Below, piece by piece: positions 12,183-14,977 of a stretch of DNA of 64,000 nucleotides. Position numbers and translations under genes: made by a program. Position 1 is the first letter of the stretch. Every line of letters begins with the position of its first letter. Source of the stretch: an uncultured Neomegalonema sp. (GTDB lineage Bacteria; Pseudomonadota; Alphaproteobacteria; Rhodobacterales; Rhodobacteraceae); contig CALLLP010000008.1 of the NCBI GenBank assembly GCA_938008165.1, positions 62,001 through 126,000 on the forward strand. The letters are read 5' to 3'. The notes under the pieces were generated by a model. That model searched no databases and had not been told where the DNA came from. It saw only the letters and a program-made list of their open reading frames with translations.

Positions 12183-12848
12183 TCAATCCAGATCGGTCAG
12201 CGTGGGCAGGCCCAGCGCCGAGGAAAACGGGGTCGGATTGTTGCGGATGATGGACTTTTTGGCGCTGGGTTGCTTGACCAGCTTCAAGCCCATCTTTTCC
12301 GAGATCGTCGAGGTTCCCACCTTGGCCTTGCCCCGTTGATTGCTCGACAGCATCCGCATGCCGAATTTCGACGAGATCGTCGAGGTATCCACGCTGGCTT
12401 TACCGCGCTGATTGCGCGACAGCAGGCGCATGCCGAAGGTGTCGGAGAACCCGGTGCCCGACCCGACGGCGCTTTCCATCGTCAGGAATTTCTTGTTTCC
12501 GGGGATGATGCTTTTTGCATATCGGGGGTCGGTTTCGGCGCGGATATGGGTTTCTTCGGCGACATCGACCTCGATGGGGTCGAACCGGTCGAATACCGTC
12601 ATCGCACTACCGGCCCGGCCAAAAGGCGCACGAACCGCGACCAGCGCATTGCCGCCCGCCATCTTGCTGGCATAGGCCTCCGCCGCCGCCCCGCTGATGC
12701 CCATATCGGCCATCGCATCGCGCGCCGCAGAATCGCCGCCTTCAATGGCGCGCACTGCTCTCTTGTTGAATCCGTCGGAAAGCAATGCCTCCGATACCTG
12801 CGAAGCCGTGCCTTTATCGGCGAACAGCCGGGTGATGAGCGTCGTCAT
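12183..12848 (-). CDS. Uncharacterised puc-operon protein: N-terminal GSP17M/YflT-like domain plus C-terminal 24-aa repeats
   Basis: N-terminal pattern (ITRLFADKGTASQVSEALLSDGFNKRAVRAIEGG...GISGAAAEAYASKMAGGNALVAVRAPFGRAGSAMTVFDRFDPIEVD) resembles general stress protein 17M domains; C-terminal repeats FGMRLLSRNQRGKASVDTSTIS / FGMRMLSSNQRGKAKVGTSTIS; 10 bp downstream of pucC. Confidence 0.65.
   Translation of the reverse strand: MTTLITRLFADKGTASQVSEALLSDGFNKRAVRAIEGGDSAARDAMADMGISGAAAEAYASKMAGGNALVAVRAPFGRAGSAMTVFDRFDPIEVDVAEETHIRAETDPRYAKSIIPGNKKFLTMESAVGSGTGFSDTFGMRLLSRNQRGKASVDTSTISSKFGMRMLSSNQRGKAKVGTSTISEKMGLKLVKQPSAKKSIIRNNPTPFSSALGLPTLTDLD
12301..12444. repeat. Two tandem 72-bp in-frame repeats
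   Basis: gagatcgtcgaggt...gattgc.cgacagca..cgcatgccgaa repeated at 12301 and 12373 with 72-bp period (24 aa). Confidence 0.9.
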
Positions 12849-12857
12849 GGTTGCCTC

Positions 12858-14288
12858 CTATGATCCTTCCGGGATCGATACCACCGCCGTAGCGGGTCTT
12901 TGCGCCTGTCGTCCCTGTCCCTGACGCAGCGGTATCACCGCCACCAGAGCCAGAACGAGGAGCGCGATTTCCAACCCGAAAACGACCATATAGGCCGTTC
13001 CCGGTCCAAACCAATCCGCATCGGGCGTATTGACGATGATGTCCCGAATGACACCCCCGATCGCGATGGCGATCCCCGCCGCCGTCGCCTGTACCGCCCC
13101 CCAAGCCCCAAGGGCGAGGCCGGTCTGTTCCTTGGGCGCCATTCGCATGGTCGCGGTCAGCGTGCCGTGGCTGAACAGCCCTGCGCCAAAGCCGATTCCG
13201 AGCACACCGGCAATGAACAGCGCAGGCATCTGCGCCGTCGCCGACAGGATGATCGCCGCAAAAGCGGGAATACCGGCCAGCGCCCCGTAGCGGACCATCG
13301 ATAGCGGGTCGCCCCCCCGGCTGAGAAGGCGCGAGGCCAGACCGAACCCGATGATCCCCCCACAGGCCATGGTCGCCGTCAGGCGGGTCGTCTCGCTGAC
13401 GGACAAGCCCAGAACCTGCCCGCCATAAGGCTCCAGCAGAACATCGGCCATCCCGAATGCCGCCGTTCCCAGCCCGATCACGATCAGGCGTTGCAGCGCC
13501 CCTTCGCCCCGGATGAACATCCGCCACGCATCGCTGAATTCCGGCTGGGGCGCCGCGGCAAGCGCACGGCTGCGATCGCGGGATTCCTGTTTCCAGATCG
13601 CGAAGATATTGACAAAGACCGTCACAACCGCCGCGCCCTGAATGACCTGAATCAGCCGACCGGCGGAATAATTCTCAAGCAAAGCCCCGAAGACCATCGC
13701 GCTGACCCCCATGCCGACCAGCAGCATGACATACATCAGCCCCACGACATTGGGTTGATCGCGGGGAGGCACCAAATCGGTGGCAAGCGCCAGCCCGACC
13801 GTCTGCACCATATGCACCCCTGCCCCGACCAGTAAAAACGCCAGCGCCGCGCTGCCATGGCCCAGCCATAGGGGCGCATCATGCGATTCGCCAAAACCGG
13901 ACAGGACCAGCAGCGCCATCGGCATGATCGCGAATCCGCCGAACTGAAGCAGCGTCCCCTTCCAGATATAGGGAATGCGCCGCCAGCCCAGCGCCGACCG
14001 ATGCGTATCGGAGCGATAGCCAATCAGCGCCCGGAACGGCGCGAAAAGCAGGGGGAGGGCAAGCATGATGCTCACCAGCGAGGCGGGGACGTTCAACTCG
14101 ACGATCATCACGCGGTTCAGCGTGCCGACGAGCAGGACCAGCGCCATGCCGACCGTGAATTGGAACAGCGACAATCGCATCAGGCGCCGCAAAGGCAAAT
14201 CATCCGACGCGACATCCGCGAATGGCAGATATTTCGGTGCCAGAGTCGCCAGCTTCGTCAGTGCAAAATGCCGATAGCGCTTGATCAC
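12858..14288 (-). CDS. pucC: PucC-family light-harvesting complex assembly transporter (BCD/PucC MFS family)
   Basis: LRLSLFQFTVGMALVLLVGTLNRVMIVELNVPASLVSIMLALPLLFAPFRALIGYRSDTHRSALGWRRIPYIWKGTLLQFGGFAIMP. Confidence 0.95.
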   Translation of the reverse strand: MIKRYRHFALTKLATLAPKYLPFADVASDDLPLRRLMRLSLFQFTVGMALVLLVGTLNRVMIVELNVPASLVSIMLALPLLFAPFRALIGYRSDTHRSALGWRRIPYIWKGTLLQFGGFAIMPMALLVLSGFGESHDAPLWLGHGSAALAFLLVGAGVHMVQTVGLALATDLVPPRDQPNVVGLMYVMLLVGMGVSAMVFGALLENYSAGRLIQVIQGAAVVTVFVNIFAIWKQESRDRSRALAAAPQPEFSDAWRMFIRGEGALQRLIVIGLGTAAFGMADVLLEPYGGQVLGLSVSETTRLTATMACGGIIGFGLASRLLSRGGDPLSMVRYGALAGIPAFAAIILSATAQMPALFIAGVLGIGFGAGLFSHGTLTATMRMAPKEQTGLALGAWGAVQATAAGIAIAIGGVIRDIIVNTPDADWFGPGTAYMVVFGLEIALLVLALVAVIPLRQGQGRQAQRPATAVVSIPEGS

Positions 14289-14370
14289 GACCAGCCTCGA
14301 AATCCTTTGGGGTGGGAATAAAGTTCAAGATCGCCGCCTAAGCGGCGACCCTGACTGTCGCAGCCGAAAG

Positions 14371-14679
14371 TCAATCGGCGGGTGGCGGAACTGTTCCATC
14401 GACCGAAGCCAGCGTTACCGGCGCATCGAATACGACACGGCCCGTGCGGCCATCGGGCAGCACGATAAACGCTTCGCCCGAATTGATGCTCGCGGTCTTC
14501 ACGTCACTATCGACGTCAACATTCGCAGCCATTTCCTGACCCGAGAAGAACTGCGCCACAAAGGCGGAATTCGTCATCACGGATGTGTGGACGATGAGCG
14601 AAGTCGCGGCGACACCGACGAAGAAAAGCGGAATTCCGACAGTCGGATTAACGACTGTCCACATTCTTGCGTTGTTCAT
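14371..14679 (-). CDS. pucA: Light-harvesting complex 2 (LH2) alpha subunit with extended C-terminus (102 aa)
   Basis: MNNARMWTVVNPTVGIPLFFVGVAATSLIVHTSVMTNSAFVAQFF; His31 BChl ligand; about 50 extra C-terminal residues. Confidence 0.93.
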   Translation of the reverse strand: MNNARMWTVVNPTVGIPLFFVGVAATSLIVHTSVMTNSAFVAQFFSGQEMAANVDVDSDVKTASINSGEAFIVLPDGRTGRVVFDAPVTLASVDGTVPPPAD

Positions 14680-14689
14680 GGGTCCCCTC

Positions 14690-14845
14690 CTATCCGAGCC
14701 ACGGCGTGGCGACGGCAACGAGAATATGAGCCACAAGCGCAATCGCACCGAAGACACGCGTACCGTCGATGAGCTGGCTGTGAATCTCTTCTGACTCGGC
14801 AATGGTCAGGCCGGTTGGCCAGACTTTATCCGGATCGTCTGTCAT
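14690..14845 (-). CDS. pucB: Light-harvesting complex 2 beta subunit
   Basis: [51 protein letters not shown]; canonical beta-antenna AH..........PW signature. Confidence 0.95.
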
Positions 14846-14959: not shown

Positions 14960-14977
14960 TGTCACATAAAACTGACA
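14960..14977. promoter_or_regulatory. Putative PpsR/CrtJ-type repressor site upstream of pucB
   Basis: TGTCA-cataaaac-TGACA: matches TGT-N12-ACA with a perfect 5-bp inverted repeat, 115 bp upstream of pucB start. Confidence 0.75.

Follow-up and report, generated by a model that had tools for sequence, protein, structure and literature searches.

Analysis of the window (the whole stretch analysed, 64,000 nucleotides of an uncultured Neomegalonema sp., belonging to a 3.1-Mb draft genome) showed the presence of an operon for light-harvesting complex 2 (LH2) in the order pucB-A-C, followed by a fourth gene, which is the subject of this report. The genes of the operon and the parts of the fourth gene are as follows (aa, amino acids; nt, nucleotides):

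12183..12848, minus strand: fourth puc gene, 221 aa, folded N-terminal domain and repeat tail
12549..12848, minus strand: N-terminal GSP17M-like domain, residues 1-100, predicted ferredoxin-like alpha/beta
12366..12437, minus strand: repeat unit 1, FGMRLLSRNQRGKASVDTSTISSK
12294..12365, minus strand: repeat unit 2, FGMRMLSSNQRGKAKVGTSTISEK, identical to unit 1 at 19/24 aa and 57/72 nt
12216..12293, minus strand: diverged repeat unit 3, MGLKLVKQPSAKKSIIRNNPTPFSSA
12186..12215, minus strand: C-terminal fourth core, LGLPTLTDLD, kept in homologues of both the short and the long form ('NPTPFSSALGLPTL', 'LGLPTLxRR')
12858..14288, minus strand: pucC, LH2-type, PF03209 (Pfam PUCC), E 5e-152
14371..14679, minus strand: pucA, LH2 alpha, Pfam LHC, C-terminal extension of ~50 aa, residues 44/45 = FF
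14690..14845, minus strand: pucB, LH2 beta, Pfam LHC

The fourth gene starts 9 nt after the stop codon of pucC on the common strand; both its open reading frame and its puc context agree with the first-pass annotation, pucC, pucA and pucB being identified by Pfam. The window pucC is distinct from the paralogue of the photosynthesis gene cluster (PGC) type on contig C38 of the same genome, and the nearest solved relatives of the window PucA and PucB are the alpha and beta chains of LH2 B800-850. The fourth-gene protein has no match in Pfam, NCBIfam or the PDB, PHROGs gave a chance-level match only, no homologues were found in the plasmid (tblastn) or viral collections, and the window protein (P0001) as a lone query found no match in the genome contigs. 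Both the N-terminal domain and the tail are under purifying selection in homologue pairs (ratio of nonsynonymous to synonymous substitution rates 0.03-0.48).

Profile matches to the fourth gene were found in 49 of 397 genomes of Rhodobacteraceae, the family of the window genome. LH2-type PucC, scoring at least 555 bits, occurs in 54 genomes; the PGC-type paralogue of other phototrophs scores at most 499 bits, which leaves a clear gap between the two. Both the gene and LH2-type pucC are encoded in 46 genomes, LH2-type pucC only in 8, a gene match only in 3, and neither in 340; the gene is accordingly present in 46/54 genomes with LH2-type pucC vs 3/343 others (Fisher p 4e-48, a value which ignores kinship among genomes and is not a true probability). 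The three genomes with a gene match only are G214, G350 and G446. Genome G214 (loci L089/L184) contains a fragmentary pucC and a fourth gene with a frameshift, so that both are being lost together from a decaying LH2 operon. The match in G350, a CysG-like protein, and those in G446 and G458, DUF2382 stress proteins, were rejected as members of the family.

The gene lies directly downstream of pucC or a pucC remnant in 24/25 first-found loci, and most of the 56 named loci, of the genera Marivita, Tateyamaria, Roseobacter, Yoonia, Jannaschia, Litoreibacter, a Dinoroseobacter metagenome-assembled genome and others, likewise follow pucB-A-C, often overlapping pucC by 4 nt. Adjoining pucBA(C) and co-distributed with it, the gene is a member of the LH2 puc operon. 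The first-pass annotation had named a spread of homologues mostly in non-phototrophs, unlinked to pucC, as evidence that would count against its proposal; the gene was found instead to track and adjoin LH2-type pucC.

The N-terminal domain profile, run over 386 Alphaproteobacteria, gave matches in 15 further genomes. Eight homologues outside Rhodobacteraceae lie within ~1 kb of pucBA, in the orders pucB-A-X-C or pucB-A-X-B-A-C or on the opposite (divergent) strand, and their tails bear motifs such as SSFGLPLLSK and NPAPLSSMFGLQLLS; the other matches outside the family are to stress proteins of the DUF2382 or glycine-zipper GSP17M kind, with no such tails. Since gene order around pucBA varies outside the family, the constant partner would be alpha/beta, not PucC. 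As judged from these genomes, many photosynthetic Alphaproteobacteria carry the fourth gene beside their LH2 genes, but not Rhodobacter sphaeroides. The 8 gene-less loci of Rhodobacteraceae represent two changes in the PucC tree, namely, one clade of seven and the single branch L088. The PucA of L087, within the clade of seven, is a sequence that we take to be that of Rhodobacter sphaeroides. The gene was thus apparently lost in a clade with Rhodobacter sphaeroides-like PucA and once elsewhere, and its loss from the usual model lineage would explain why classical LH2 work missed it.

The N-terminal domain has a confidence score (pLDDT) of mostly 93-98 in the AlphaFold2 (AF2) model of P0001 and of 85-92 in that of the Marivita protein. 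PF11181 (YflT/GSP17M) has no match in P0001 or anywhere in its own genome, and the best homologue reaches 13 bits against a gathering score of 26.2. Profile-profile comparison with the N-terminal domains of DUF2382 stress proteins gave an hhalign probability of 98.5 and an E of 1.7e-15, values biased towards a match because the stress-protein rows (A6) were drawn from matches of the N-terminal domain profile; the A4 profile also picks up DUF2382 and glycine-zipper GSP17M proteins. The name 'GSP17M-like' given to the domain at first pass is therefore right, although under the Pfam cut-off: the ~100-aa alpha/beta N-terminal domain is homologous to that of PF11181 YflT/GSP17M and DUF2382 proteins, whereas the fourth-gene family has no DUF2382 or glycine-zipper part, has a repeat tail and is linked strictly to LH2 genes. 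Foldseek searches with both AF2 models gave nothing significant, only generic ferredoxin-like, PII or CutA-like folds at E of at least 0.03.

The tail of the window protein has a net charge of +11 over 117 aa and is disordered in the AF2 models of both P0001 and the Marivita protein. Its best 24-mer self-match has 19 identities, vs at most 11 in 5000 shuffles of the tail, and its cores have the form FGMR[LM]LS of the general core [FW]xxPL[IL]S[RK]. The tandem pair of 72-bp repeats described earlier is present, but 'near-identical' was somewhat too strong a term for it; the degenerate third copy was found as unit 3, beginning at 12293, and a further, fourth core (LGLPTL) begins at 12215. The even spacing of the repeats and the predicted disorder of the tail support the earlier suggestion of multivalency well.

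The tails of homologues contain 5.9 cores per tail, vs 0.003 in shuffled tails, and occur in short and long forms. By inspection, the cores of short forms (190-233 aa) number about 2-5 and lie 24-26 aa apart, the strict pattern giving 0-5. The commonest long form (~48 proteins listed) contains eight cores at 25 aa, occasionally 24 or 26, with the unit consensus MA[ND][FW]P[IL]PL[IL]SRRKPxxxS[AI]FPRHAR, and a ninth core, the terminal LGLPTLxRR, mostly 20-27 aa past the eighth. The fifth of the eight units is always one distinct variant, MANWPFPxLINGKTGTNALMPG (also written MANWPFP..LINGKTGTNALMPG; A3 columns about 238-262), and the units are therefore not interchangeable. Candidate bacteriochlorophyll (BChl)-ligating residues in the 25-aa unit are S10 (70%) and H23 (78%). 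The steadiness of repeat number across many genera in this class suggests a fixed geometry. The second long class, represented by L049, L094, L172, L173, L176, L177 and L179-L182, has 12-14 cores mostly at a spacing of 15 aa (VPGHKFMAKFPFGHI), close to the 16-aa period of the gamma polypeptide of Rhodopseudomonas palustris LH2.

The fourth-gene protein has about an even chance, in our judgement, of being a cytoplasmic accessory subunit of LH2 which docks on the ring by its repeats. The GSP17M-like domain would be the folded head of this soluble subunit; each core of the basic tail, disordered alone, may dock on the cytoplasmic side of one LH2 alpha-beta pair; and the docked tail would encircle the ring wholly or partly, or bridge neighbouring rings. 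The cytoplasmic location is predicted from inspection of the sequence, in which no signal peptide or transmembrane segment was seen. The mode of action would be like that of the Rhodopseudomonas palustris gamma ribbon, unrelated-looking in sequence. Gamma is described in PMC9618040 as an extended repeat polypeptide near the cytoplasmic side, lying round six of the nine alpha-beta pairs, with each repeat Ser binding a BChl (structures: PDB 7zcu, 7zdi, 7ze3 and 7ze8, chain S). Both are LH2-specific series of short tandem repeats with an xPL[IL] core, extended or unstructured alone, and their repeat number is near the count of alpha-beta pairs.

Several points weigh against this reading. Gamma has 97 aa, consists of repeats only with a ~16-aa period and has no folded head, whereas the fourth-gene family has periods of 24-26 or 15 aa behind a folded head and so falls outside gamma's all-repeat, ~16-aa pattern; the BChl-ligating repeat Ser of gamma (SGxPL) is also placed elsewhere than in the fourth-gene repeats. 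Homology of the core repeats to 'SGxPLILK' of gamma was not accepted, the resemblance being weak (within-unit permutation p about 0.05). P0001 and the A2 profile had no match among PDB chains, including 7zcu_S, and gamma was not found in the family of G556 in a search made without a positive control. Nine cores of the 25-aa class would match a nonameric LH2, a point in favour of the reading; this equation was dropped as a general rule, for there are 12-14 cores in the 15-aa class and about 2-5 in short forms. The solved LH2 of Rhodobacter sphaeroides and that of Rhodoblastus acidophilus assemble, to our knowledge, without such a subunit. Twelve copies (L049, L093, L094, L142, L153, L154, L160, L164, L168, L170, L179 and L180) have no puc genes nearby. 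LH2 binding is suggested by genomic linkage, and any binding of pigment by the repeats, at the candidate Ser and His positions, is speculative. In the copy L154, the one inspected among the puc-free copies, the neighbours are unrelated genes.

Two further features of the operon were annotated upstream of the fourth gene:

14325..14354, minus strand: 13-bp stem-loop in the pucA-pucC spacer, possible attenuator, structure only
14960..14977, strand not assigned: PpsR/CrtJ-like TGT-N12-ACA site upstream of pucB

The stem-loop would possibly lower the expression of pucC and the fourth gene relative to pucBA, and the fourth-gene protein would then be substoichiometric to alpha/beta. The PpsR/CrtJ-like site is weak, since 8 such sites occur in 64 kb.

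Low expression of both pucC and the fourth gene would suit an assembly factor, whose tail would gather several alpha/beta polypeptides, or hand on BChl or alpha/beta to the assembly transporter PucC, and which would be absent from finished LH2. PucC (PUCC family) is an LH2 assembly protein, and the position of the gene directly after pucC in Rhodobacteraceae, often with a 4-nt overlap, also speaks for this role. In other families, however, pucA and pucC flank the gene or pucC lies apart from it, lineages of the Rhodobacter sphaeroides type retain pucC without it, and a fixed count of even repeats is more in keeping with a fixed geometry than with transient capture; we regard an assembly factor as rather doubtful.

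A tether that joins LH2 rings to one another, or LH2 to the reaction centre-light-harvesting 1 complex, in arrays, and wraps no single ring, is unlikely. The multivalent linkers EPYC1 and CsoS2 organise Rubisco by repeats. They resemble the fourth-gene protein in having a disordered tail of repeated short binding motifs and differ in being Rubisco organisers with a looser repeat number, homology not being expected. A multivalent, basic, disordered tail and a repeat number which varies with lineage and class (2-14) fit a tether of this kind, but within the 25-aa class the number is constant over many genera, unlike in typical linkers. A stress or regulatory protein co-transcribed with puc genes by chance is very unlikely: the homology of the N-terminal domain to that of GSP17M/DUF2382 stress proteins is in its favour, and is all that supports the stress-response role raised in the first-pass annotation, but no DNA-binding or catalytic feature was seen, and near-perfect restriction to LH2 genomes together with the changing order round pucBA argues against passive co-transcription.

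The alpha polypeptide was compared between carriers and non-carriers of the gene. PucA is C-terminally extended (at least 75 aa) in 54/56 carriers vs 0/8 non-carriers and has F44, mostly as F44-L45, in 52/56 vs 1/8. As just two events account for the absence of the gene, few independent cases underlie this association. In the window and in L026-L127 the extension comprises 40-60 aa with a conserved 'VILPDGTTARAIL' stretch. By LH2 topology it would be periplasmic, and direct contact with a cytoplasmic protein is therefore improbable. According to PMC12654162, F44-L45 occurs in the 'LH4' of Roseobacter, Roseicyclus and Dinoroseobacter, which has a single peak at ~800 nm.

The wider proposal that the family is a widespread, so far unrecognised LH2 subunit which wraps the ring, adds one extra ~800-nm BChl per repeat and helps to make the ~805-nm 'LH4'/B806 of the Roseobacter group is improbable as a whole. 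LH2 is a textbook antenna, known mostly from lineages without the fourth gene; if the protein is an LH2 subunit, the present structural picture of LH2 lacks a component for a large share of marine aerobic phototrophs (Roseobacter group) and for several other alphaproteobacterial families. The gene would help to show whether ring-wrapping subunits like gamma are widespread rather than a peculiarity of Rhodopseudomonas, and would offer a direct handle on the ~806-nm absorption of the Roseobacter-group antenna (PMC12654162).

The open-licence literature on LH2 and puc, as far as it was read, gave no account of the fourth-gene protein. PMC10890935 depicts the puc operon of Dinoroseobacter shibae with four loci (Dshi_2897-2900) that are regulated together with the PGC; the fourth of them is a candidate for the present gene. 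Additional genes after pucC are also known from the LH2 operon of Rhodobacter capsulatus, named pucBACDE in PMC9231093. PucD and PucE resemble the fourth gene in operon position. PucE is a 14-kDa LH2-gamma polypeptide which copurifies with LH2. In Rhodobacteraceae bacterium HLUCCO18 (L092 and L145) a long and a short form of the fourth gene lie in tandem after pucC, side by side, and are therefore paralogues.
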